Shown here: positions 24,407 to 35,807 of the stretch, in pieces
How the letters are laid out: every line of letters starts with the position of its first letter
Position numbering within the stretch: the first letter of the stretch is position 1
Source of the DNA: Sphingomonas sp.
GTDB lineage: Bacteria; Pseudomonadota; Alphaproteobacteria; Sphingomonadales; Sphingomonadaceae
Assembly (NCBI RefSeq): GCF_013812825.1
Contig: NZ_JACCSU010000063.1
Span: forward strand, 1 to 64,000
Length of the DNA stretch: 64,000 nucleotides
Direction of reading: 5' to 3'
The notes under the pieces: model-generated
Databases searched by the model: none
Told to the model about the DNA's origin: nothing
What the model saw: only the letters and a program-made list of their open reading frames with translations
Translations under genes and position numbers: made by a program

Positions 24407-25666
24407 TCAGAGGAACTTGCCTCCCATCAACTCCTGGAGCGCTCGTGGAAGCCGAACGCGCCCATCCTCGGTCTGGTGGTTCTCGAGCAGCGGCACGAAG
24501 ATTCGTGGGGAAGCCAGCGCGGTATTGTTGAGCGTGTGAGCGAAGCGCACTTTGCCGTCGGGCCCGCGGTAACGAAGGTTCGCTCGCCGCGCCTGCCAGT
24601 CGTGCAGGGTCGAGCAGCTGTGCGTCTCTCGGTATTTGCCGAGGGACGGCACCCAGCTCTCGATGTCGTTCATCCTAAACTTGCCGAGGCCCATGTCGCC
24701 GGTCGACGTCTCGACCACCTGGTAGGGGATCTCGAGCGCCTGGAGCAGGCTTTCGGCCAAGCCCAGAAGCTTGGCGTGCCATTCGGCGGACACCGCCTCG
24801 TCGGCCTCGCAAATCACATATTGCTCGACCTTGAGGAACTGGTGGACTCGCAGCAGCCCGCGAACGTCGCGGCCGGCGCTGCCCGCCTCGCGCCGGAAGC
24901 AGGGCGAATATCCCGCGTAGAGGATCGGCAGCCGGTCGCCCTCGATGATCTCGCCCGAATGCAACGAGGTCAGGACGACCTCGGCCGTCCCGGCGAGCCA
25001 CAGATCGTCGTTCGGCAGCTCGTACGTCTCTTCCTCGTGGCCCGGGAATTGCCCCTGGGCGGTGAACGCCTGCTCGCGGGCCAGCGCCGGCACGGTGATC
25101 GGGGTGAAGCCGGCCTCGGCGATCCGCTCGAGCGCCCAGGTCATCAGCCTGGCTTCGAGCAGCGCCAATCGACCCTTGAGGCAATACATCCGCGAGCCGG
25201 CGACCTGGGCGATGCGCGACAGGTCCGCCCAGTCGTTCTTCTCCATCAGCGCGACATGGTCGAGCGGCTCGAAGCCGAGTTCGGGCGGCGTGCCTTGGGT
25301 CCGGACGACAATGTTGGCGCTTTCGTCGGGACCGACGGGAGCGCCCTCCCACGGGATGCCGGGAAGCCGGAGCATGAGGCCCCGGAGCTCCGATTCCCGC
25401 TGATTGAGTCTGGTTTCGAGCTCGCTCGCCCTGGCGCCGGCTTCCTTGGCCTTGCGGCCGAGCTCAGCCTTCTCGTCCGCCGCCGCGGTCGGGAATTTGG
25501 CGCTGATCTCGTTGCGTTCGGCCCGGAGCGCCTCGATCTGCGTCTTGAGCCCGCGAACTTCGGTGTCGAGCGCAAGCAGCGCTTCGAGGTCGAAGTCGAC
25601 CGCCTTGTCGCGGATCGCGCGCTCGACCGCGGCGCGGTTGGCCTTGACGAAGTCCATCCCCAGCAT
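24407..25666 (-). CDS. serS: Seryl-tRNA synthetase, atypical type
   Basis: A 419-residue class II synthetase charging tRNA-Ser. An N-terminal coiled-coil arm (~30-100), motif 2 (YSPCFRREAGSAGRDVRGLL) and motif 3 (NNTALASPRIFVPLLENHQ) are all present. The start MLGMDFVKANR at 25666 aligns with the usual MLDIKFVREN-type beginning; the frame is open further upstream only through a palindromic repeat. The wording VDFDLEALLALD and TALASPRIF differs from the alphaproteobacterial form I recall and is closer to SerRS of distant bacteria, so gene replacement by transfer is possible (inference). Confidence 0.93.
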   Translation of the reverse strand: MLGMDFVKANRAAVERAIRDKAVDFDLEALLALDTEVRGLKTQIEALRAERNEISAKFPTAAADEKAELGRKAKEAGARASELETRLNQRESELRGLMLRLPGIPWEGAPVGPDESANIVVRTQGTPPELGFEPLDHVALMEKNDWADLSRIAQVAGSRMYCLKGRLALLEARLMTWALERIAEAGFTPITVPALAREQAFTAQGQFPGHEEETYELPNDDLWLAGTAEVVLTSLHSGEIIEGDRLPILYAGYSPCFRREAGSAGRDVRGLLRVHQFLKVEQYVICEADEAVSAEWHAKLLGLAESLLQALEIPYQVVETSTGDMGLGKFRMNDIESWVPSLGKYRETHSCSTLHDWQARRANLRYRGPDGKVRFAHTLNNTALASPRIFVPLLENHQTEDGRVRLPRALQELMGGKFL

Positions 25667-25704
25667 GGCCGCGGCAGTGCGCGAATTGGGTTGTCGAGGC
25701 AAGC

Positions 25705-25818
25705 TTAAGCCCGCCCCCTTCATGGGGGAGGGTTGGGTGGGGGTGGCGGCTGAGCTGCTAGGGCTTCTTCCGAAGAGTCCACCCCACCCCAACCCCTCCC
25801 CATCAAGGGGAGGGGCTA
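25705..25818. repeat. Palindromic element between serS and the DUF808 gene
   Basis: Imperfect long inverted repeat: GCCCGCCCCCTTCATGGGGG through GGTTGGGTGGGGGTGG on the left, and CCACCCCACCCCAACCCCTC through CCCATCAAGGGGAGGGGC on the right. It fills the divergent promoter region. Confidence 0.85.
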
Positions 25819-25856
25819 TGGTTGGCATTGCGGCTGACATTGCCTAACGGGCGGCC

Positions 25857-26834
25857 ATGCCGTCCGGTCTCATTGCCCTGCTCGACGACGTCGCCACCCT
25901 GACCAAGCTCGCCGCCGCCTCGGTCGACGACGTCGGACTGGCCGCCGGCAAGGCGGGGACCAAGGCGGCCGGGGTGGTGATCGACGATACCGCGGTCACC
26001 CCGCGCTACGTGACCGGGCTGCTGCCCGAGCGCGAGCTGCCGATCATCGCCAAGATCACCGTCGGCTCGCTGCGCAACAAGCTGCTGATCATCCTGCCGG
26101 TGGCGCTGTTGCTGTCCGCCTTCGCCCCGTTCCTGATCCCGCTGGTCCTGATGCTCGGCGGGTCGTATCTCGCCTTCGAGGCAACCGAGAAAATCCTCGA
26201 GAAGATCACCGGCAACATCCACGACGAAATGCAGCTGCTGGTCGCCGAGACCGCGGCGGAGCTCGAGGCGCGCCAGGTCGCGGGCGCGATCCGCACGGAT
26301 TTCATCCTTTCGGCCGAGATCATGGTCATCGCGCTCGCCGAGCTCGGCGAGGAGTCGCTGGCGATGCAGTCGGGCGCGCTGATCGCGGTCGCCATCGGCA
26401 TCACGCTCGTCGTCTATGGAGTGGTCGCGTTGATCGTCAAGCTCGACGACATCGGCCTGCACATGGCGGCGCGGCGCAGCGCCGCGGCCCAGTCGATCGG
26501 CCGCGGCCTGGTGCACGGAGTCCCCTATCTCCTCACCGGCCTGTCCGGGCTCGGCACCGCGGCGATGCTGTGGGTGGGCGGCGGAATCATCCTCCACGGC
26601 ATGGAGGAATTGCACTTCGAAGCGATCCCGCACGCCATTCACGACGCCGCGCACGCGATCGCGGTGACGGTCGGAACGATGATTCCGGTGGTCGAATGGC
26701 TGGCGAATGCCCTCGCCGCGGCGATCGCCGGGCTGATCGTCGGCGGCGTGATCGTCGGGGTGATGCACCTGCGGCCCAGGCGGCGGCAACACGCCGACGG
26801 CGCGGCCGGCAGCGAAGAGACCGTCCAGCCTTAA
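25857..26834 (+). CDS. DUF808 family membrane protein
   Basis: A 325-residue DUF808 (YedI-like) inner-membrane protein. The family N-terminus SGLIALLDDVATLTKLAAAS is intact, followed by KAAGVVIDDTAVTPRYV and several hydrophobic helices: ~78-105, 150-180, 205-235 and 275-305. Function is unknown. Divergent from serS across a palindromic element; its stop interlocks with that of the flavin reductase gene in TTAA (26831-26834). Confidence 0.9.
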   Translation: MPSGLIALLDDVATLTKLAAASVDDVGLAAGKAGTKAAGVVIDDTAVTPRYVTGLLPERELPIIAKITVGSLRNKLLIILPVALLLSAFAPFLIPLVLMLGGSYLAFEATEKILEKITGNIHDEMQLLVAETAAELEARQVAGAIRTDFILSAEIMVIALAELGEESLAMQSGALIAVAIGITLVVYGVVALIVKLDDIGLHMAARRSAAAQSIGRGLVHGVPYLLTGLSGLGTAAMLWVGGGIILHGMEELHFEAIPHAIHDAAHAIAVTVGTMIPVVEWLANALAAAIAGLIVGGVIVGVMHLRPRRRQHADGAAGSEETVQP

Positions 26835-27358
26835 TCGAAGTGCAGCCGGCGGTAGCGGCCGCGGAAGAACAGCAGCGGGTCGAGGCTCGGGTCGAAGCTG
26901 GCCTTGAGCACATGGCCGACCAGCAGGTGGTGGTCGCCGCCGTCGTGGACCGCATGGCGCTCGCATTCGAACACGCTCAGCGAATTGCCGAGCACCGGCG
27001 CCCCGAATTCGCCCGGCGACCAGTCGCTGGGGCCGAAGCGGTCCTCGTCGCGCGTCGAAAAGCGGATCGAGGCGGGTTGCTGCCCGGTCTGCAGCACGTT
27101 GACCGCGAAATGGCTCGCCGACGTCAGCGCTCGGGCGCTCGCCGCCATCTTGTGGATGCAGACCAGCAGCAGCGGCGGCTCGAGCGACACCGAAGTGAAG
27201 CTGTTGGCGGTGATCCCGAACGGGCGCCGGTCCGAATCGAAGCAGGTGACGACGGTCACCCCGGTGGCGAAGCAGCCGAGCGCGTCGCGCAGGGTCCGCG
27301 GGTCCGACCCGGTGCGGTATTCGCCGGTGCGCGGCTGAGTATGCTTTGGGTCGGCCAT
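26831..27358 (-). CDS. Flavin reductase family protein
   Basis: A 175-residue FMN-binding split-barrel protein related to the reductase component of two-component flavin monooxygenases (HpaC/RutF type). Seen: FATGVTVVTCFDSDRRPFGI, TANSFTSVSLEPPLLLVCIH and AVNVLQTGQQ, then HHLLVGHV in the C-terminal half. It probably supplies reduced flavin, but no monooxygenase partner is adjacent. The ATG at 27358 marks the start of the conserved protein. Confidence 0.88.
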   Translation of the reverse strand: MADPKHTQPRTGEYRTGSDPRTLRDALGCFATGVTVVTCFDSDRRPFGITANSFTSVSLEPPLLLVCIHKMAASARALTSASHFAVNVLQTGQQPASIRFSTRDEDRFGPSDWSPGEFGAPVLGNSLSVFECERHAVHDGGDHHLLVGHVLKASFDPSLDPLLFFRGRYRRLHFD

Positions 27359-27398
27359 GCGTGCCCTTGTAGCGACGCCAATCGGCGCCGCCATAGGA

Positions 27399-28631
27399 CT
27401 AGCGTTTCGTCGCCATGATGTCGCTGATCTCGCGCATCCGGCCGGTATACACATCGCTGAGGCACGAGTCCGAGCGGCAGGCGTCGCGCTGGGCGACGAA
27501 GCGTTCGCGCGTGCCGAGCAGCCGGGCCCGCCGGACGGCGTCGGCCTGGCCCCACGACTGGCCGTAGAGCACGCCCAGATGGCGATCGAGCCTCGCCAGG
27601 CCGGCGTTGTTGCACACCGAGTTTTCGCCGCGCCCTTTGGCGACCCGGCAGTTGAAGCTGGGATTCGCCGGCGCATCGGCCGCTCGCTGCGCCACGCTGT
27701 CCGATTGCGCCGCCGTTCGCGCCGATTGCGTCGCCGTTCGGGCCGGCTGCGGCGCGACTCTGGCGCGGGGTGGCGCCGGCGCCAGCCTGGGCAGCGGCGG
27801 CTGCTCGTCGAAATGTGGCCCCACTTCGGCCGGAGGCTCGGCGACCGGCTCCGGAAGCGGTGCATCCTGCGGATCGCTGACCCGCTCGAGCGTGACCAGC
27901 GGGGTGACGATCAGGCCATCGTTGGACACGCCGACGACGCTTGCGCCACCGGCCGCGGGCTTCACCGTATAGCCGATGTCGGCCATCAGGTTCCGCCGCC
28001 CGTCGAGAACCGCGACTCCGGGCGGCAGGTCGAGCGCGACCCACGCTCGGCAGCGCACCGTCCCAAGCCTGGAGTCCGCTTGCCGGAGCTCCGGCAAATC
28101 GATCCGGATCATCGAATAGCCGGCAATCTGGTCGAACGCCGCCCGGTCGCGGCCGCGAATCCCCGCCGCCCGACGGAACAGCTCGCGCTTGATCTGGTCG
28201 CCGGTCCCCGGTGACCCGCAATGCGCTGCGGGATTCTGCTCTGGAGAGGCGATCGCGTCGATTGGTGCAGCGGACATTCTTTCGGGCAGTTCGCGCAAGA
28301 ACAACGGGGGCCGGATCGCGACCACCAGCAGCAGCGCGACCGCCGTCACGGCGAACAGGGCGCTTGGGCTGGGCCGCGGCCTCCGCGGTGCGACGCTAGT
28401 TGACCTTTGGAGGGCGCGCAGCTGGGCCCGCTTGAGGTCATATTCGGAGCGCCGGCGCCAATCGCTGAGCACCGCGTAAGCGTTGGTGATCGCCCGGGCG
28501 CGCTCGGCCGCTTCCGTCGATGAATTGCGGTCGGGGTGGTAGCGGCGCATCAGCGCCAGATAGGCGGCGCGGATGACCACGTCCTCCGACGTGGGCGAGA
28601 CCCCCAGGGTTGCGTAATGGTCCGGTGTCAC
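27399..28631 (-). CDS. Membrane-anchored J-domain protein with C-terminal LprI-like domain
   Basis: A 410-residue chimera. Residues 1-65 form a J domain (HYATLGVSPT, HPD at 32-34), which should stimulate DnaK in the cytosol. One membrane helix lies at ~90-107. The exported part (~108-410) has an uncharacterised middle, a Pro/Ala-rich linker (~265-320), and a Cys-rich terminal domain (~325-410, CRVAKGRGENSVC..., LDRHLGVLYGQ, ACRSDSC) resembling the lysozyme-inhibitor LprI/DUF1311 fold. This puts a chaperone contact and a periplasmic domain on one chain. Domain identities are by eye. Confidence 0.8.
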   Translation of the reverse strand: MTPDHYATLGVSPTSEDVVIRAAYLALMRRYHPDRNSSTEAAERARAITNAYAVLSDWRRRSEYDLKRAQLRALQRSTSVAPRRPRPSPSALFAVTAVALLLVVAIRPPLFLRELPERMSAAPIDAIASPEQNPAAHCGSPGTGDQIKRELFRRAAGIRGRDRAAFDQIAGYSMIRIDLPELRQADSRLGTVRCRAWVALDLPPGVAVLDGRRNLMADIGYTVKPAAGGASVVGVSNDGLIVTPLVTLERVSDPQDAPLPEPVAEPPAEVGPHFDEQPPLPRLAPAPPRARVAPQPARTATQSARTAAQSDSVAQRAADAPANPSFNCRVAKGRGENSVCNNAGLARLDRHLGVLYGQSWGQADAVRRARLLGTRERFVAQRDACRSDSCLSDVYTGRMREISDIMATKR

Positions 28632-28696
28632 GATTCCCGCGCTGCCCAGTCCTCAATCGTCTGCCGAGGTTAACTATACAGTCCGAGCGCCCGCGC

Positions 28697-29473
28697 TCAA
28701 ATCGTCAGCAGCTCCTCGGCATCGGTTCGCAGGATTTCCTCGACCGTCGCCTCGACCGTCTCGGACACCAGGTAGAGCGGCTGGAACACGTCATTGCGAT
28801 AGGCGGTGCGCACCGCCCGCCGCACCGAGAAGGGCAGCCGCTCGACACGATCGCTCTCCAGGCTGAAATGTGCTTCGCCGAAGCTCGACGCGAGCCCGGC
28901 CCCGAGGATCTTCAGGTCGCCGCCTTCGCGGGCCAGGCCGAACTCGACGCTGTGCCAGTAGATTCGAGCGACGCGCTCGCCATGCCCGGCGGCGATCGCC
29001 GCTCCGCCCAGCCGCCCGACATGCTCGATCATCCCGGCATAATCGTGGTCGGCCAGCATCGGGATGTGGCCGAACAAGTCGTGGAAGCAGTCGGGCTCTT
29101 CCAGATAGTCGAGCTGCTCGACTGTTCGGATGAAGTTGCCGACCGGGAAGACGCGCTCGCTCAGCATGGCGAAAAAGATGTCGTCCGGGACCAGCCCGGT
29201 CACCGCCACCGTCTGCCACCCGGTCCGCGGCTCGAGGATCGCGTTGAGCTCGTCGAGGTCGGGCACGCCGGGATGCGACAGCCGAAGCAGGTCGATGCCG
29301 TCGAGGAACGGGCGGACAACCCGGCTGCCGAGCAAGTCCACCTGCCGCGCAAACAGCAGGTCCCACACCGCGTGGTCGTCAGCGGTGAACGCGTCCCAGC
29401 GTTGCGGCACGACATAGTCCCGCCAGCCTTGGGGCGTGTCGGTCCTTGCTTGGGCTCTGTGGCGCATATTCAT
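28697..29473 (-). CDS. phhA: Phenylalanine 4-monooxygenase
   Basis: A 258-residue iron- and pterin-dependent hydroxylase converting L-Phe to L-Tyr, of bacterial single-domain size. The iron ligands are in CFHDLFGHIPML (two His, near 121 and 126) and a Glu in IYWHSVEFGL (~167); the pterin-binding region includes TGLVPDDIFFAML. ATG at 29473 and 29467 are both possible; the latter has AAGGA eight bases upstream. A Tyr-Tyr leader peptide and an intrinsic terminator lie immediately upstream, so attenuation is likely. phhB and hppD lie nearby. Confidence 0.94.
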   Translation of the reverse strand: MNMRHRAQARTDTPQGWRDYVVPQRWDAFTADDHAVWDLLFARQVDLLGSRVVRPFLDGIDLLRLSHPGVPDLDELNAILEPRTGWQTVAVTGLVPDDIFFAMLSERVFPVGNFIRTVEQLDYLEEPDCFHDLFGHIPMLADHDYAGMIEHVGRLGGAAIAAGHGERVARIYWHSVEFGLAREGGDLKILGAGLASSFGEAHFSLESDRVERLPFSVRRAVRTAYRNDVFQPLYLVSETVEATVEEILRTDAEELLTI

Positions 29474-29488
29474 GTTCCTTCGGGCAAT

Positions 29489-29519
29489 AAAAAACCCGCC
29501 GAGCGGAGGCTGGGCGGGT
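29489..29519 (-). terminator. Intrinsic terminator/attenuator in the phhA leader
   Basis: On the minus strand a perfect 7-bp stem (29513-29519 with 29494-29500; ACCCGCC/GGCGGGT) with a 12-base loop runs straight into six U residues (29494-29489). It ends about 15 bases before the phhA start, so it must be bypassed for expression. Confidence 0.8.
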
Positions 29520-29550
29520 CGAGGCTGGAGTTCGTCTGTCGCGAATCGCG

Positions 29551-29634
29551 TCAGCCGGTGCCAACCTCGCAGCGATAGTAATTGCCATCCGCTGCGGCGC
29601 GGCGGCTGGGAATCAAGGCGGTCGAACGAGTCAT
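29551..29634 (-). CDS. Candidate phhA leader peptide with tandem Tyr codons
   Basis: A 27-codon frame (ATG 29632-29634, TGA 29551-29553) begins MTRSTALIPSRR and contains consecutive tyrosine codons TAC TAT at residues 19-20 in GNYYRCEVGTG. The stop lies 31 bases before the terminator stem. Tyrosine is the product of PhhA, so ribosome stalling at these codons under Tyr shortage could relieve termination. CGAGGTTGG just after the Tyr codons (29561-29569) can pair with CCAGCCTCG (29520-29528), directly beside the terminator stem. The ribosome-binding site is weak and no clear antiterminator was found. Confidence 0.55.
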   Translation of the reverse strand: MTRSTALIPSRRAAADGNYYRCEVGTG

Positions 29635-29773
29635 TGGAGCTGCTTATCGCATCCGTTTCCTGAACGCCAACTGTCGGCGCCCGCTTCCGCGAACGCGGCC
29701 GCGCATTGCGCCCCAATCCGGGACAGGCGCGGATGGCCGTTTGCGCGAAGGGGCGCAGCCGGACGATGCGTTG

Positions 29774-30052
29774 ATGATGCTTTGCGCAATCTTCACCATG
29801 CTTGCAGCCACCGCGTCGTTCGAGCCGGCCCGCGAAGCCCCAAGCGCCTCGCTTGGAGTCACCGCGACGGTCGTCCGCCCGGTCGAGATATCGCCGCCGT
29901 CGATCGACTCCGGCGGGGCGGTCGTCACCATCCGCAACACGCTTGACGTCGAGGTGCTGGTGGCGGGCGCGAGTGCCGACACAAGCGATCCAGACACGAC
30001 GATCCTGACCGGCGACGGCGCCGGGCCGGTGGTCATCACGCTCGTCTATTAG
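29774..30052 (+). CDS. Small secreted protein, unknown
   Basis: A 92-residue frame beginning with a plausible signal sequence (MMLCAIFTMLAATAS), followed by a Thr/Val-rich, beta-strand-like mature part with no cysteines. I do not recognise it. Start could be ATG at 29774 or 29777. Its stop interlocks with the phhB stop in TTAG (30049-30052), which supports it being a real gene. Divergent from phhA. Confidence 0.5.
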   Translation: MMLCAIFTMLAATASFEPAREAPSASLGVTATVVRPVEISPPSIDSGGAVVTIRNTLDVEVLVAGASADTSDPDTTILTGDGAGPVVITLVY

Positions 30053-30321
30053 CCGGCCGGCGACACCCGTTCCGCCAGCGCGTTGATCGCCTCGGCGAGC
30101 GCCACATCGCGCTCGGTCACTCGGCCGGCATCGTGGCTGGTCAGTCGGAAATCGACCTTGTTCCAGACGCTGGTGAACTCCGGATGGTGGTCGACCTTCT
30201 CGGCGTGCAGCGCCACCCGCGTCAGGAACGCGAAGGCCTCGCTAAAGTCCTTGAACTTGAAGCTGCGCGCCAGCGCCTTGCCGCTGTCGTCGAGATTCCA
30301 GCCATCGGGAATGGTTGCCAT
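30049..30321 (-). CDS. phhB: 4a-hydroxytetrahydrobiopterin dehydratase (pterin carbinolamine dehydratase)
   Basis: A 90-residue enzyme that recycles the pterin cofactor oxidised by PhhA. The family residues are in HAEKVDHHPEFTSVWNKVDF (catalytic His pair) and TSHDAGRVTERDVALA. Full length for the family. It shares the strand of phhA but the small secreted gene lies between them. Divergent from hppD across a repeat. Confidence 0.93.
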   Translation of the reverse strand: MATIPDGWNLDDSGKALARSFKFKDFSEAFAFLTRVALHAEKVDHHPEFTSVWNKVDFRLTSHDAGRVTERDVALAEAINALAERVSPAG

Positions 30322-30337
30322 CTTTGCCTCCTGATGT

Positions 30338-30416
30338 CGTCATTGCGAGGAGCGCAGCGACGAAGCAATCCAGTTCTTCTGTTTGCTAGATTGCTTCGCT
30401 GCGCTCGCAATGACGG
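30338..30416. repeat. Inverted repeat between phhB and hppD
   Basis: Arms at 30338-30370 (CGTCATTGCGAGGAGCGCAG onward) and 30389-30416 (GATTGCTTCGCTGCGCTCGC then AATGACGG) are complementary apart from small insertions. It is a common proteobacterial intergenic element and lies in the divergent promoter region. Confidence 0.85.
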
Positions 30417-30553
30417 CGGTGCGCCAAATCTTGCAAAGCGGCACGCGCAGTCTGTCCGGGGGACAGGCGAGCATGGCGCTGCGCGACCGGCCGAAGCCTT
30501 GCAAACCGGCATATCCGGGAGCAGGGAAAAGCCCGCAAAGAGGAGGATTGGGA

Positions 30554-31642
30554 ATGGCCACCGCTGTTGCCGAAAAAGGACCACTCGGCCTCGAGAACCC
30601 GATGGGCACCGACGGCTTCGAGTTCGTCGAATATGCCGCCCGGGATTCAGAGCTGCTGCGCTCGCTGTTCACGAACATGGGCTTCCCCGAGGTCGCGCGC
30701 CACAAGCGCAAGGCCGTCACCCTGCACCGGCAGGGCGACTGCAACTTCATTATCAACTCCGAACCCGGCAGCTTCGCCGAGGAGTTCGCCGAGGCTCACG
30801 GCCCGTGCGCCTGCGCGATGGCGTTCCGGTTCAAGGACGCCAGGGCCGCGCACGCCCGAGCGCTCGAGCTCGGCGCGACCGACGTCAAGAGCGACGTTGC
30901 CGAGGGCGAGCTCGAAATCCCGGCGATCGAGGGCATCGGCGGCTCGCGTCTCTATTTCGTCGATCGCTATGCGCAGCGCGGCACGATCTACGAGGTGGAT
31001 TTCGAGTTCCACCCGGACTGGCGCCAGCGCGAGGCCGACCAGGCGTCGCATCTGACCTACATCGACCATCTCACGCACAACGTGAATCGCGGCCGGATGG
31101 CGGTCTGGGCCGATTTCTACGAGCGGCTCTTCAACTTCCGCGAAATCCGCTACTTCGACATCGAGGGCAAGGTCACCGGGCTGTTCTCCAAGGCGATGAC
31201 CAGCCCGTGCGGCAAGATTCGGATCCCGCTCAACGAGAGCCAGGACGACAAGAGCCAGATCGAGGAGTTCCTGCGCGAATATAAGGGCGAGGGCATCCAG
31301 CACATCGCGCTGGGCAGCGACGACATTTACGCCGCGGTCGATATCCTTCGCGGCCGCGCAATTCCGTTCCAGGACACGCCCGAAACCTATTACGAGCTGC
31401 TCGACAGCCGCATCGAGGGCCACGGCGAGTCGCTCCCCGAGCTCCGCAAGCGGGGCATATTGATGGACGGCGCGCCGACCGAAGGGCAGGGGCTGCTGCT
31501 GCAGATCTTCACCCAGAACGTGATCGGCCCGATCTTTTTCGAGATCATCCAGCGCAAGGGCAACGAAGGCTTCGGCGAAGGCAATTTCAAGGCGCTGTTC
31601 GAGTCGATTGAGCTCGACCAGATGCGCCGCGGCGTGATCTGA
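30554..31642 (+). CDS. hppD: 4-hydroxyphenylpyruvate dioxygenase
   Basis: A 362-residue Fe(II) dioxygenase converting 4-hydroxyphenylpyruvate to homogentisate, the second step of tyrosine degradation. Two VOC-type domains are present. The active domain has iron His in YIDHLTHNV (~176) and GIQHIALGSDDI (~256), and the Glu in GPIFFEIIQRKG (~335). ATG at 30554 follows AGGAGG by seven bases. It links phhA/phhB to the homogentisate route; hmgA, maiA and fahA are not in the window. Confidence 0.96.
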   Translation: MATAVAEKGPLGLENPMGTDGFEFVEYAARDSELLRSLFTNMGFPEVARHKRKAVTLHRQGDCNFIINSEPGSFAEEFAEAHGPCACAMAFRFKDARAAHARALELGATDVKSDVAEGELEIPAIEGIGGSRLYFVDRYAQRGTIYEVDFEFHPDWRQREADQASHLTYIDHLTHNVNRGRMAVWADFYERLFNFREIRYFDIEGKVTGLFSKAMTSPCGKIRIPLNESQDDKSQIEEFLREYKGEGIQHIALGSDDIYAAVDILRGRAIPFQDTPETYYELLDSRIEGHGESLPELRKRGILMDGAPTEGQGLLLQIFTQNVIGPIFFEIIQRKGNEGFGEGNFKALFESIELDQMRRGVI

Positions 31643-31654
31643 TGAAGGTTCCAT

Positions 31655-31735
31655 GTTCCCCGGCGAAGGCCGGGGCCCAGGCCGATGCGAAGCAACGGTT
31701 CCCGCTGCCCTGGACCCCGGCCTCCGCCGGGGAAA
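31655..31735. repeat. Inverted repeat between hppD and the thiolase gene
   Basis: Arms 31655-31680 (GTTCCCCGGCGAAGGCCGGG onward) and 31710-31735 (CTGGACCCCGGCCTCCGCCG then GGGAAA) form a long near-perfect stem. It is a frequent sphingomonad intergenic repeat type and ends 10 bases before the thiolase start. Confidence 0.85.
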
Positions 31736-31744
31736 AGTGAAGTA

Positions 31745-32947
31745 ATGACCGAAGCCTTCATCTGCGACGCCGCGCGGACTCCGATCGGCCGCTACGGCGG
31801 AGCGCTTGCGTCGATCCGCGCCGACGACCTCGCCGCGATCCCGATCCGGGCGCTCGTCGAGCGCAACCCGTCGGTCGACTGGGGCGAACTGGACGACATC
31901 ATCCTCGGCTGCGCCAACCAGGCGGGCGAGGACAACCGCAACCTCGCCCGGATGGCGGGGCTGCTCGCGGGCTTGCCCGACAGCTCGGGCGGAGTGACCC
32001 TCAACCGGCTGTGCGGCTCTGGGCTCGACTCGGTGGCGATGGCGGCTCGTTCGATCCGCGGCGGGGAGTCGGACCTGATCATTGCCGGCGGCTCGGAAAG
32101 CATGAGCCGGGCGCCGTTCGTCCTGCCCAAGGCAAGCCAGGCTTTCGACCGCACCGCCGAGATCTACGACACGACCATCGGCTGGCGCTTCGTCAACCCG
32201 AAGATGCGCGATGCCTACGGCGATGACACCATGCCTTCGACCGCCGAGAACGTTGCCCAGGAGTTCCAGGTCACGCGCGAGGACCAGGACGCGTTCGCTC
32301 TTCGCAGCCAGCAGCGAACCGCGGCGGCGCAGGCCAATGGGCGGCTCGCCGCCGAGATCGTCCCGGTCCCGATCGCGCAGCGCAAGGGTGAACCGCTGGC
32401 CGTCGAGCGCGACGAGCATCCGCGCGAGACCAGCCTCGAGTCGCTGGCCAGGCTGAAGCCGATCGTCCGCGCCGACGGCACCGTCACCGCCGGCAATGCA
32501 TCGGGGGTCAACGACGGCGCCGCTGCGATCATTATCGCCAGCGAGGAAGCGGCGAGGCGCAACGGCCTGACGCCGCGGGCGCGGGTCCTCGGCGGCGCGG
32601 TCGCCGGAGTGCCGCCGCGGATCATGGGCATCGGCCCGGCGCCCGCGTCCGGGAAATTGCTCAAGCGGCTGGGCTTCAAGATCGACCAGATGGACGTGAT
32701 CGAACTGAACGAGGCGTTCGCCGCCCAGGCGCTGGCCGTGCTTCGCCAGCTCGGTCTTCCCGACGACGCCGAGAACGTGAACCCCAACGGCGGCGCGATC
32801 GCGCTCGGTCACCCGCTCGGCATGTCCGGCGCGCGCCTCGCGCTGACCGCGACCGAACAGCTGCAACGCGATGGAACGAAACTGGCGCTGTGTACGATGT
32901 GCATCGGCGTCGGCCAGGGAATCGCGCTGGCGCTCGAGCGGGTCTGA
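31745..32947 (+). CDS. pcaF: 3-oxoadipyl-CoA thiolase
   Basis: A 400-residue thiolase. The acyl-enzyme Cys is in NRLCGSGLD (~90), with the His in NPNGGAIALGHPLGMSGAR (~356) and the second Cys in LCTMCIGVGQG (~386). The stretch AEIYDTTIGWRFVNPKM is characteristic of 3-oxoadipyl-CoA thiolases of the beta-ketoadipate (pcaF) and phenylacetate pathways, which give succinyl-CoA plus acetyl-CoA. The neighbouring paaD gene, joined by TGATG, points to a phenylacetate role, so paaJ would be an equally fair name. Confidence 0.88.
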   Translation: MTEAFICDAARTPIGRYGGALASIRADDLAAIPIRALVERNPSVDWGELDDIILGCANQAGEDNRNLARMAGLLAGLPDSSGGVTLNRLCGSGLDSVAMAARSIRGGESDLIIAGGSESMSRAPFVLPKASQAFDRTAEIYDTTIGWRFVNPKMRDAYGDDTMPSTAENVAQEFQVTREDQDAFALRSQQRTAAAQANGRLAAEIVPVPIAQRKGEPLAVERDEHPRETSLESLARLKPIVRADGTVTAGNASGVNDGAAAIIIASEEAARRNGLTPRARVLGGAVAGVPPRIMGIGPAPASGKLLKRLGFKIDQMDVIELNEAFAAQALAVLRQLGLPDDAENVNPNGGAIALGHPLGMSGARLALTATEQLQRDGTKLALCTMCIGVGQGIALALERV

Positions 32948-33393
32948 TGCGCGAGGGAAATCGCGCTCCGATCCGGGCGGTGCTCGAGACCGTCATGGAC
33001 CCGGAAATCCCGGTCGTCTCGGTGGTCGACCTCGGGATCGTCCGCGACGTCAGCGACGACCGGGTGACGATCACTCCGACCTATTCGGGCTGCCCTGCGA
33101 CCGAGGTCATCGAGCGCACCATCCGACAAGCGCTCGACTTAGCCGGTTTCGGGCACGTGGAAATCAAAACCGAGCTCGCGCCGCCGTGGACGACCGACTG
33201 GATCAGCGAGAAGGGCAAGGACGCCCTCAAAGCCTACGGCATCTCGCCGCCCGACCTGGCCAAGGCCGCGACTTGCCCGCTGTGCGGCTCGACCGACACC
33301 GAGGAGGTCAGCCGCTTCGGCTCGACTCCGTGCAAGGCGCAGTGGCGCTGCAGAACGTGCCTGGAGCCGTTCGACCGCTTCAAATGCCACTAG
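32947..33393 (+). CDS. paaD: PaaD, maturation factor of the phenylacetyl-CoA epoxidase
   Basis: A 148-residue protein with an N-terminal MIP18/DUF59 domain (VMDPEIPVVSVVDLGIVRDV, TPTYSGCPATEVIE) and a C-terminal cysteine-rich tail (CPLCGST..., CRTCLEPFDRFKCH) that may bind zinc or iron-sulfur. PaaD supports iron-sulfur assembly of the PaaABCE epoxidase. Here it is separated from paaABCE, none of which are in the window, and is coupled instead to a thiolase. ATG at 32947 overlaps the thiolase stop. Confidence 0.9.
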   Translation: MREGNRAPIRAVLETVMDPEIPVVSVVDLGIVRDVSDDRVTITPTYSGCPATEVIERTIRQALDLAGFGHVEIKTELAPPWTTDWISEKGKDALKAYGISPPDLAKAATCPLCGSTDTEEVSRFGSTPCKAQWRCRTCLEPFDRFKCH

Positions 33394-33403
33394 GCTAGCG
33401 GCG

Positions 33404-34543
33404 TCACCACTCCGCGAAGCTTCCGTCGGAATGCCGCCAAACCGGGTTGCGCCATCGGTGGCGCTCTTTGTGCGCTTCGCGAACCGCGTCCTCGTCGATG
33501 GTGATTCCGAGGCCCGGCCCCTGCGGGATCCGGAGATAGCCGTCCTCCGGAGTCAGCACCTGCTGGTCGCTGCAGAATTCCAGCAGGTCGTGGCCGACAT
33601 TGTAATGGATGCCCAGGCTCATCTCCTGAATGGCGACATTGGGAGTGCAGGCGGCAAGCTGCAGGCACGAGGCCAGCGCCAGCGGCCCGAGCGGGCAGTG
33701 CGGCGCAACAGCGATGTCGTAGGTTTCGGCCATTGCCGCGATCTTGCGGCATTCGAGGATCCCGCCGGCGTGGCTCAAGTCCGGCTGGATGATGTCGACG
33801 GCGCCCATCTCGAAGAACGGCTTGAAGTCCCAGCGCGAGAACAGGCGCTCGCCGAGCGCGATCGGGGTGCTGGTCAGTTCGGCGATCTGCCGCAGCCCGT
33901 CGGGGTTCTCGGACAGCAGCGGCTCCTCGATGAACAATAGTCCCAGCGGCTCAAGGACCTTGGCCAGCTGCTTGGCCATCGGCCGGTGCACTCTGCCGTG
34001 GAAATCGAGACCGACGTCCATGCCCGTCGCCTGCGCCGCTTCGACCCGCTTGACCACCTCGTCGAACAGCCGGGGGGTGCCGATCCAGTCGAGCTCGGCG
34101 GTGGCGTTCATCTTGACCGCGGAGAAGCCCTGGTCGCGGCGGACCTTGGCCGCGTCGGCGATCTCGCTCGGCCGGTCGCCGCCGATCCATGCGTAGGCGC
34201 GGATCTTGTCGCGCACCCGGCCGCCGAGCATCTCCCAAGCGGGCAGTCCGACGACCTTGCCTTTGAGATCCCAAAGCGACTGCTCGAGCCCGGCGAGCGC
34301 CGACATCAGCACCGGCCCGCCGCGGTAGAAGCCGCCCCGGTAACTAACCTGCCAGATGTCCTCGATGCGCCGCGGGTCATGGCCGATGAAGCGATCGCGA
34401 AGCGCCTCGAACGCGCCGTCGACGGCTTCGGCGTGGCCCTCGAGGCTCGCCTCTCCCCAGCCCACCGCGCCGTCGTCGCTCTCGACCCGCACGAACAGCC
34501 AGCGCGGCGGGACGTAGAACGTCTCGATCCGGCCGATCTTCAT
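33404..34543 (-). CDS. dgoD: D-galactonate dehydratase
   Basis: A 379-residue enolase-superfamily enzyme converting D-galactonate to 2-keto-3-deoxygalactonate. Metal ligands are in VGLDFHGRVHRPM (Asp), LLFIEEPLLSEN (Glu) and IALGERLFSRWDF (Glu), with the catalytic His in VAPHCPLGP. The N-terminus MKIGRIETFYVPPRWLFVRV is typical of DgoD. ATG at 34543 comes one base after the preceding gene's stop, so both are in one transcription unit. It is part of the galactose module. Confidence 0.93.
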   Translation of the reverse strand: MKIGRIETFYVPPRWLFVRVESDDGAVGWGEASLEGHAEAVDGAFEALRDRFIGHDPRRIEDIWQVSYRGGFYRGGPVLMSALAGLEQSLWDLKGKVVGLPAWEMLGGRVRDKIRAYAWIGGDRPSEIADAAKVRRDQGFSAVKMNATAELDWIGTPRLFDEVVKRVEAAQATGMDVGLDFHGRVHRPMAKQLAKVLEPLGLLFIEEPLLSENPDGLRQIAELTSTPIALGERLFSRWDFKPFFEMGAVDIIQPDLSHAGGILECRKIAAMAETYDIAVAPHCPLGPLALASCLQLAACTPNVAIQEMSLGIHYNVGHDLLEFCSDQQVLTPEDGYLRIPQGPGLGITIDEDAVREAHKERHRWRNPVWRHSDGSFAEW

Positions 34544-34544
34544 G

Positions 34545-35807
34545 TCATTCCCCGGCAAGACGAGTTTCGTCGAGGTCGCGGCCGGCGGCATCATGGTCGT
34601 CATGCTCGCTCAGCTTCTTGATCGGCACCACCAGGCACACGCTCGATGCCGGCAGCACGTTGCGCCAGTCGGCGATCAACTGCTTGTAGGCCTTGCCGAC
34701 GTTGCGCATCTTGCGGTCCAGGTCGAACAGCCCGAGCGGGTTGATGTTGCCGTTCTGCTCTCGAAGCGCGGTGTCCCAGTCGATCTGGTCGATCAGCGAA
34801 TACCAGGTGAAGCCGACGGTCGGGATTCCGACGTTGCGCAGCCGCAGAACGTTGGCCCATTCCTTCCACAGCCACTTGACCGCCTCGTCCCCGTGCGGAC
34901 CCTCCCACAGATTGGTCTCCGTGTGCATCACCGGAACCCGATAGCGGTTGTAATATTGGCGGGTGATCTCGGTGTAACCGAACACTTCGCCCGCCGCGAC
35001 GGTCCGCCCGTCGGCGAACACGCGATGCTCGTTGAGCTTGTAATAATCGTTGCCGAGGATGCAGTGCTGCTTGAGCCGGTGCTCGAGGAACCAGTGGTAC
35101 TCCTCGCGGGTCATGCCGTTGTCGGTCAAAAACTCGTACATGCCGCTTTCGACCCGGCGCCCGTAATTGAGGTCGAGCGACAGGAACCGCATCTGGTTCA
35201 GGACTTCGGCGCGGCCGATCGCGGCCGGGCTGTCGGCGTGATAATATTCGGTCGATTCGCTCTGGATGAAGATCGCGTCGTGACGGCGCTTCAAAATCTC
35301 GATCATCGCCAGCACATTGGCTTTGACGATGAGCTTGAGCGCGGTGACGAACGAGCGGTCGTCCTTCATCTGCTCGTTCCACCAGCCGTACTTGGCCGAG
35401 AACACCGCGCAGATGAACATCTCGTTGATCGGCGTGTACAGCTGCACCCATGGGTAGCGCTCGGCAAAGGCGCCTGCGTAGGTCGCGAACAGCTGTGGGA
35501 AATCCGGGTTCTGGAAGTTGCCGACCCAGTCCGGCACTCCGAAATGGCACAGGTCCATGATCGGAGTGATCTCCCGTCGCCTCAGGTCGGCGAACGTCAG
35601 GTCGGCGAACTCCCAGTCATATTTACCGGGCCCCAGCCACGTGCGGTGGATTGGAGGGCCGTAGCGCAAATAGTTGATGCCGATTTCCTGGACGCAGTCG
35701 AAATCCTCGCGCCACCGTTCATAGTGGCCGCTCGACTCCATCTGGTCGATTCGGGTCTTGCCGTGATTGATCGTCGGGATGCTGTTTTCGATCCCGGTCG
35801 CGAACAT
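34545..35807 (-). CDS. Glycoside hydrolase family 1-like protein
   Basis: A 420-residue TIM-barrel glycosidase-like protein. Candidate catalytic residues are the acid/base Glu129 in YTPINEMF (GH1: TFNEP) and the nucleophile Glu297 in VMHTETNLWEG (GH1: TENG). Both motifs deviate from the canonical ones, and there is no signal peptide, so it acts in the cytosol. In a galactose operon it may release galactose from an imported oligosaccharide or glycoside (inference). AAGGAG lies 16-21 bases upstream of ATG 35807, which is unusually far, so the start is a little uncertain. Confidence 0.75.
   Translation of the reverse strand: MFATGIENSIPTINHGKTRIDQMESSGHYERWREDFDCVQEIGINYLRYGPPIHRTWLGPGKYDWEFADLTFADLRRREITPIMDLCHFGVPDWVGNFQNPDFPQLFATYAGAFAERYPWVQLYTPINEMFICAVFSAKYGWWNEQMKDDRSFVTALKLIVKANVLAMIEILKRRHDAIFIQSESTEYYHADSPAAIGRAEVLNQMRFLSLDLNYGRRVESGMYEFLTDNGMTREEYHWFLEHRLKQHCILGNDYYKLNEHRVFADGRTVAAGEVFGYTEITRQYYNRYRVPVMHTETNLWEGPHGDEAVKWLWKEWANVLRLRNVGIPTVGFTWYSLIDQIDWDTALREQNGNINPLGLFDLDRKMRNVGKAYKQLIADWRNVLPASSVCLVVPIKKLSEHDDHDAAGRDLDETRLAGE

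Follow-up and report, generated by a model that had tools for sequence, protein, structure and literature searches.

A putative tyrosine-codon attenuator in front of the phenylalanine hydroxylase gene in a sphingomonad lineage mostly without TyrA

Leader-peptide attenuators, of which those of trp, his, leu, thr, ilv and pheA are examples, consist of a short ORF with codons for the regulating amino acid, alternative hairpins and a terminator, and are induced by shortage of that amino acid (PMC1183508, in excerpt). The element upstream of the phenylalanine hydroxylase gene phhA described here is composed likewise; it differs from the classical attenuators in its Tyr codons, in the gene that it precedes, in its apparently near-leaderless leader, and in that three segments seem to suffice where those attenuators use four, from which read-through without translation is predicted. 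The trpL leader of Sinorhizobium meliloti (rnTrpL/peTrpL) is alphaproteobacterial too, and the excerpts of PMC7298713 describe an RNA that begins at the leader ATG and a choice between terminator and antiterminator; it differs in having Trp codons and in preceding trpE(G), and the likeness is one of description. Attenuators have also been predicted ahead of tyrA operons, that is, of another tyrosine-making gene (Merino database, as cited in PMC1173090, the excerpts of which do not describe the leader peptides). Two further leader-peptide attenuators predicted by comparison, as ours was, are uORFC-8-2 (Cys codons, cysS, Rhodobacterales) and uORFC-13-1 (Phe codon, aroF, Acholeplasma); both differ from the phhA element in codons, gene and organism (PMC8632094, in excerpt).

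Phenylalanine hydroxylase (PAH) with a biosynthetic role has been described in Dyella, Legionella and Echinicola; in D. japonica, a good prephenate or arogenate dehydrogenase was not identified by GapMind, and absence has been suggested for L. pneumophila. These enzymes represent, in other lineages, the same tyrosine route as is proposed here, and the excerpts of that paper mention no leader or attenuator (PMC7311316). Rfam families, too, describe structured RNAs ahead of genes; none matches the phhA element, and scanning positions 25000-35000 of our sequence with the Rfam 15 families gave no match at the leader or terminator even at E up to 1. No report of a Tyr attenuator of phhA was found in the literature searched, which was covered partly through best-ranked matches only and had most subscription journals outside its scope. 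The element would be a known kind of attenuator in a lean three-segment layout, with a gene and a sensed residue that are apparently unreported.

The window, i.e., the whole stretch of DNA analyzed, comprises 64,000 nt of Sphingomonas sp. (Sphingomonadaceae; assembly GCF_013812825.1, contig NZ_JACCSU010000063.1, positions 1-64,000). A first-pass annotation had reported a 27-codon frame with consecutive Tyr codons at residues 19-20, followed by a GC-rich stem with six U residues about 15 bases ahead of phhA, and both features were confirmed (Table 1). The terminator core is formed by CCCGCC (29518-29513) and GGCGGG (29500-29495), with an A-U pair at its base and possibly a G-U pair too; its six U residues occupy 29494-29489, and 15 nt separate them from the phhA ATG at 29473. 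A consensus terminator scan did not report this stem, presumably since the loops that it allows are limited to 3-8 nt, and gave an inner 5-bp alternative ahead of the same U run. The catabolic gene hpd (TIGR01263, above its cut-off) lies near phhA. Weak sub-threshold Rfam matches, often on both strands, were seen at 30341-30453, 31646-31745 and 25710-25815; these regions lie between or inside genes, behave as imperfect palindromes do, and are possibly repeat elements.

Table 1. Features of the phhA locus in the window
Feature	Description	Coordinates	Strand	Basis
Promoter-like site	TTGGCG (29670-29665), 16-nt spacer, GATAAG (29648-29643)	29643..29670	-	score 8.5
Leader ORF	27 codons, MTRSTALIPSRRAAADGNYYRCEVGTG, stop TGA (29553-29551)	29551..29634	-	ORF reading; Tyr-bearing ORFs in relatives
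Candidate regulatory Tyr codons	TAC TAT, residues 19-20	29575..29580	-	sequence; Tyr pairs vs. shuffles
A arm	CGAGGTTGG, begins 11 nt past start of first Tyr codon	29561..29569	-	arm geometry
B arm	CCAGCCTCG, pairs with A, abuts terminator	29520..29528	-	fold and helix search
Intrinsic terminator	ACCCGCC/GGCGGGT stem, 12-nt loop, run of six U	29489..29519	-	sequence, fold, alignment A1
phhA	biopterin-dependent aromatic amino acid hydroxylase (phenylalanine 4-monooxygenase type)	28697..29473	-	PF00351, 142.9 bits
Pterin-4a-carbinolamine dehydratase (phhB type)	neighbor outside the switch	30049..30321	-	PF01329, 97.2 bits

The PF00351 score of the window PhhA is well above the gathering cut-off of 22.7 bits. 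With TIGR01267 (monomeric phenylalanine 4-monooxygenase) the protein scored 239.1 bits, below the curated cut-off of 264.75, and the relative in L205 scored 310.2 bits. Among solved chains, the nearest ones carry the name phenylalanine-4-hydroxylase (lowest E 6.4e-58), and the two His and one Glu that we take to be the iron ligands appear to be kept in the alignment with solved structures. In a tree of 83 PhhA proteins, which leaves out genus g45, 32 leader-bearing rows and one leaderless copy from G210 group together (support 82/93), and the core of this group, with 27 rows, sits on a branch of 1.12, with which the sub-cut-off TIGR01267 score is in line. One of the two copies of G226 is in the tree and groups with TyrA-bearing relatives. 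The leader probably arose once, judging from this tree; since the leader-bearing genes form approximately one clade, the association between the leader and loss of TyrA described below comes close to a single event.

Of the 71 genomes of the window's genus, 65 yielded PhhA, with 69 genes in total; 64 of these genes are preceded by a leader that has two or more Tyr among its final 20 residues, and then by a terminator. Conservation of the Tyr codons and terminator among relatives had been named beforehand as one of two points on which the idea would stand or fall, and both are conserved to this extent. In G208 and G221, phhA has the terminator behind a leader with a single Tyr in that stretch; among the upstream regions of the 69 genes, those of both G226 copies and of one of the two G210 copies contained no leader. 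The named close relatives by PhhA include Sphingomonas daechungensis, S. sediminicola, S. hankyongi, S. alba, S. segetis and Sphingomicrobium lutaoense. No leader of this kind was seen ahead of the 12 most distant phhA genes (L023-L034); a 22-codon ORF with two Tyr in L033 was rejected as a leader, there being no T run after it in the stretch read.

For further analysis a set of 68 leaders, selected for at least one Tyr plus a terminator, was assembled from the 64 genes less one repeated G203 copy (L217, identical leader peptide), the two genes with a single Tyr and three genes that belong to two further genera; L213, which is the same gene as L085, was omitted, and from the family sample just the seven leader-bearing genomes were drawn. 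The Tyr pattern varies (YYY, YY, YAYAY, YHY, YPY, YAYG) and Tyr itself is retained. Two or more Tyr occurred among the last 20 residues of 66/68 leaders (shuffled sequences: mean 3.3, maximum 9 in 30 rounds), and Tyr pairs in 64/68 compared with 0.5 in shuffles (8 rounds). In the same 8 rounds, observed and shuffled numbers of pairs were 1 and 0.4 for Phe, 0 and 0.75 for Trp, and 0 and 1.25 for His, all close to chance; pairs of Ala (47 vs. 13), Gly (38 vs. 11), Leu (23 vs. 10) and Ile (7 vs. 1.9) exceeded shuffles ca. 2- to 4-fold, all by a smaller factor than Tyr.

An RNA model, R2, was built from an alignment (A1, below) with a hand-written structure, the RNAalifold structure (R1) having missed the A:B pairing. 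It matched at phhA in 64 of the 65 PhhA-bearing genus genomes, 23 of those sequences being in the model. The window and 22 relatives match by construction, so that the search tests other genes and specificity only; the genome of the window gave a single match (E 4.8e-21), to the window sequence that is itself in the model.

As judged by consensus matches only, the best σ70-like site scored at least 8 in 40 of the 68 leaders, and no site that high was present in the other 28. In 31 of the 40, the -10 element is followed after 5-10 nt by a start codon of the leader frame, compared with a mean of 1.9 of 22.5 in shuffled sequences (40 rounds). In the window, the -10 element GATAAG is 8 nt ahead of the leader ATG, and the transcription start is predicted within a few nucleotides of this ATG. 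Because a promoter-like site is located just ahead of the leader start codon, the leader mRNA is probably leaderless or nearly so, and by the promoter scan a transcription start downstream of the leader frame is unlikely. The first-pass annotation had rightly remarked that the leader ribosome-binding site is weak; a near-leaderless start explains this, as a good site is then not needed.

The sequence following the Tyr codons had also been proposed to pair with the sequence abutting the terminator stem, and A and B indeed form nine pairs, one of them G-U. The A arm starts 8-32 nt (median 14) after the first Tyr codon in the 68 leaders, and in 61 of them its 3′ end precedes the end of the stop codon by 9-12 nt. 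Given the usual ribosome footprint, the front of a ribosome at the first Tyr codon stops just short of A, and a ribosome at the stop codon covers A; A would thus be free in the former case and covered in the latter.

The partner of A touches or overlaps the terminator 5′ arm in 56/68 leaders. With the A-U and G-U pairs formed with the U run counted as part of the terminator stem, the overlap is at least 3 nt in 48 leaders, 1-2 nt in 8 and none in 12; because of this overlap of at least 3 nt, A:B can be regarded as an antiterminator in the 48. The clearest case is G186, in which A is CCGGGCGGG, a copy of the terminator 3′ arm; in G077, AGGCG-GCGGTGG pairs with CCACCGC-CGCCT around one mismatch. 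In the window only one nucleotide, part of a G-U pair, is shared; in many close relatives of the window the first C-G pair of the GC core is shared as well, and nothing more. The first-pass annotation had found no clear antiterminator; the pairing that it had seen is probably the antiterminator and enters the terminator 5′ arm in many relatives.

Pairs at three A positions changed on both sides across leaders: C-G in 21 and A-T in 23; T-A in 32 and C-G in 14 (T-G in 19); G-C in 42 and T-A in 17 (T-G in 5). In these counts A was taken by codon position and its partners from a script-found helix, and they are hence biased towards pairing. Two alignments were prepared, A1 with 23 of the 26 "abutting" rows (L256, L259 and L262 left out) and A2 with 38 of the other 42 (L204, L234, L237 and L263 left out). 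In A1, 89.8% of A:B cells are paired, compared with 30.9-58.3% when the arms are slid by 1-3 columns; shuffles gave 87.5%, and 0/500 were as high. Three two-sided pair changes were seen in A1, a number reached by 33/500 shuffles, with some B arms being out of register in this alignment. In a swap test, which is weak, on average 24% (median 15%) of foreign B regions bound a given A as well as its own B, and the own B beat shuffled B at z < -2 in just 22/68 leaders. A second B-like copy, CAGCCTC, in the window terminator loop was considered as a partner of A and rejected; by eye, it is not conserved.

The 6-bp terminator core is paired in 98.5% of cells in A1 (23 sequences). The MFE fold of the window sequence holds both A:B and the terminator (z = -3.8 for a 97-nt piece and -2.55 for a 179-nt piece relative to shuffles). 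When a ribosome was placed at the first Tyr codon and the RNA extended up to the terminator 3′ arm, the probability of A:B was at least 0.5 in 59/68 leaders (0.90 in the window); with the ribosome at the stop codon, the probability of the terminator was at least 0.8 in 65/68. Once the RNA was complete, equilibrium folding with the ribosome kept at the first Tyr codon still favored the terminator in 58/68 (0.98 in the window); the probability of the terminator fell below 0.5 in 10/68 only, two of which (G217 and G265) have a badly placed stem. Since equilibrium favors the terminator despite a ribosome at Tyr, the switch must be kinetic, operating during RNA synthesis, or steric, through the abutting helix. 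In the clade of the window, the abutting A:B helix would keep the terminator from closing; the exact antitermination mechanism in this clade is the weakest step of the proposal, and we hold it to be reasonably probable.

Taking the above together, we consider it very probable from sequence comparison that the element is a ribosome-mediated transcription attenuator which senses charged tRNA-Tyr and controls a phhA that supplies tyrosine from phenylalanine. The leader with its Tyr codons, the promoter-like site, the geometry of the arms, their pairing with two-sided changes, the terminator and the lack of a TyrA match above the cut-off are seen in the sequences; stalling, read-through and the biosynthetic role of phhA are what we infer. 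Transcription would begin at or just ahead of the leader AUG. When tyrosine is ample, the ribosome would pass the Tyr codons to the stop codon and cover A, the terminator would form and phhA would not be transcribed. When tyrosine is short, the ribosome would stall at the first Tyr codon with its front edge just before A, leaving A to pair with B before the terminator 3′ arm is made (in many relatives A would also pair with the terminator 5′ arm). With A:B formed, RNA polymerase would read through into phhA.

The distribution of TyrA was determined by matches to PF02153, genomes being labeled as TyrA-bearing or TyrA-lacking by a match above the family cut-off (G145 and G152 of the family sample have sub-cut-off matches). 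No TyrA was found in the genome of the window, which is 96.4% complete and in which all 14 controls matched. Within the genus TyrA is above the cut-off in only 4/71 genomes, G210, G213, G226 and G256; the second TyrA domain, PF20463, was positive in the identical four, and eight further genus genomes have weak sub-cut-off matches, to PF02153 only. In the family sample of 199 genomes, TyrA was above the cut-off in 171, and 167 have PhhA. Upstream regions were read for 235 phhA rows, one gene being represented twice and further copies of G021, G029, G122 and G127 being left out. Outside the genus, the leader was found in 0/144 phhA rows from TyrA-bearing genomes and in 3/21 rows from TyrA-lacking ones (G044, G124 and G186), the 18 rows of the other TyrA-lacking family genomes having no leader. 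Within the genus, it was found in 62/64 rows from TyrA-lacking genomes and 3/6 rows from TyrA-bearing genomes; the leader-bearing genomes with TyrA are G210, whose tyrA is split over two frames, G213, and G256, which is 70% complete. The first-pass annotation had inferred that phhA is induced by tyrosine shortage and acts as a tyrosine-making enzyme, which fits these comparisons (64/69 leaders, TyrA in 4/71 genomes and 0/144 leaders outside the genus). The genus genomes G224, G233 and G236, all 99-100% complete, have neither PhhA nor TyrA above the cut-off and are possible Tyr auxotrophs.

Prephenate dehydratase (PheA) was found in 14/71 genus genomes and not in the other 57, and chorismate mutase in 44/71. 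Searches with the known families found neither enzyme in the genome of the window, and likewise neither in one-contig genomes of 99-100% completeness, among them G220, G229, G257 and G258. Because these two enzymes were not found in the clade of the window, phenylalanine would have to be imported there. In G213, the leader and phhA come after aroE, and in G213, G247, G248 and G264 the genes for chorismate mutase and prephenate dehydratase are found no more than about 7.5 kb upstream, in the same orientation. In G210, aroB, a piece of aroE, the second, leaderless phhA and the split tyrA are kept together; this tyrA occupies L271 1575-2599 (minus strand), beside the leaderless phhA in the aroB-aroE cluster.

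Other attenuator-like leaders were noted in the course of this work. Leaders with Thr and Ile codons were seen at L273 2293-2385 (minus strand), L274 1345-1439 (plus), L275 2778-2867 (minus) and L276 4011-4100 (plus), each followed by a long ORF divergent from the chorismate mutase/prephenate dehydratase cluster; a piece of the L273 ORF matches PF00696 (amino acid kinase), and the L274-L276 ORFs are alike by eye. A leader with a run of five Met precedes a similar ORF at L277 2305-2393 (minus strand) in G244 and is a possible Met-sensing attenuator. Trp-pair leaders with a terminator were observed in L278, L280 and L281 ahead of a DAHP synthase gene (PF00793), a TrpD-like gene (PF00591) and a transporter-looking ORF.

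The MFE fold of the window, in which A:B and the terminator coexist like a 1:2 / 3:4 pair, brings to mind the classical four-segment attenuator, where A:B would protect the terminator and a ribosome stalled on Tyr would block A, so that freed B disturbs the terminator. The geometry in the window's clade would allow this, as only about 5-11 nt lie between the first base of the last Tyr codon and the beginning of A, and a stall at that codon would cover part of A. We nevertheless regard such an arrangement as unlikely: B and the terminator 5′ arm are both C-rich and, by eye, have little mutual pairing, and the partner of A enters that arm by 3 nt or more in the 48 leaders described above. The window terminator is predicted to be strong in both modeled ribosome states, as would also be the case if a constitutive partial terminator happened to follow an incidental ORF and there were no regulation at all. 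This is scarcely credible given that Tyr pairs and promoter spacing are far above shuffles and that the arm geometry is constant.

An independent gene for a trans-acting small RNA or peptide, like rnTrpL/peTrpL, with the terminator ending that RNA, would account for a near-leaderless start combined with a strong terminator, as in S. meliloti trpL (PMC7298713, in excerpt). We assign this a very low probability, since the peptide drifts save for Tyr, Tyr keeps its place relative to the A arm and the stop codon, and R2 matches at phhA in 64/65 PhhA-bearing genus genomes (with the 23 model sequences among them); it would in any case be compatible with attenuation and not exclusive of it. Equally improbable in our opinion is that the leader just limits a catabolic enzyme when tyrosine is plentiful, phenylalanine being degraded via homogentisate. 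The genes for Hpd and pterin dehydratase do adjoin phhA in the window, yet TyrA is above the cut-off in just the four genus genomes, and in G213 the leader and phhA stand behind aroE. A catabolic use of phhA may exist in addition to tyrosine supply.

The attenuator sensing charged tRNA-Tyr, if correctly read, would be a regulatory RNA tied to a rewired pathway, in which a usually catabolic enzyme has come under a shortage switch of the biosynthetic type in a lineage mostly without TyrA. We lean, if only slightly, to the broader view that in one sphingomonad lineage phenylalanine hydroxylase is the main or only source of tyrosine and is governed by a Tyr-codon attenuator of minimal three-segment, default-on design, and that the clade of the window, importing its phenylalanine, has an animal-like economy with essential Phe, Tyr made by PAH, and supply set by a stalling ribosome. 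The natural series of antiterminators, from overlapping to merely abutting ones, bears on how little overlap an antiterminator needs. The element offers a testable regulator for a biosynthetic PAH, and it predicts the amino acid needs of dozens of sequenced soil bacteria.
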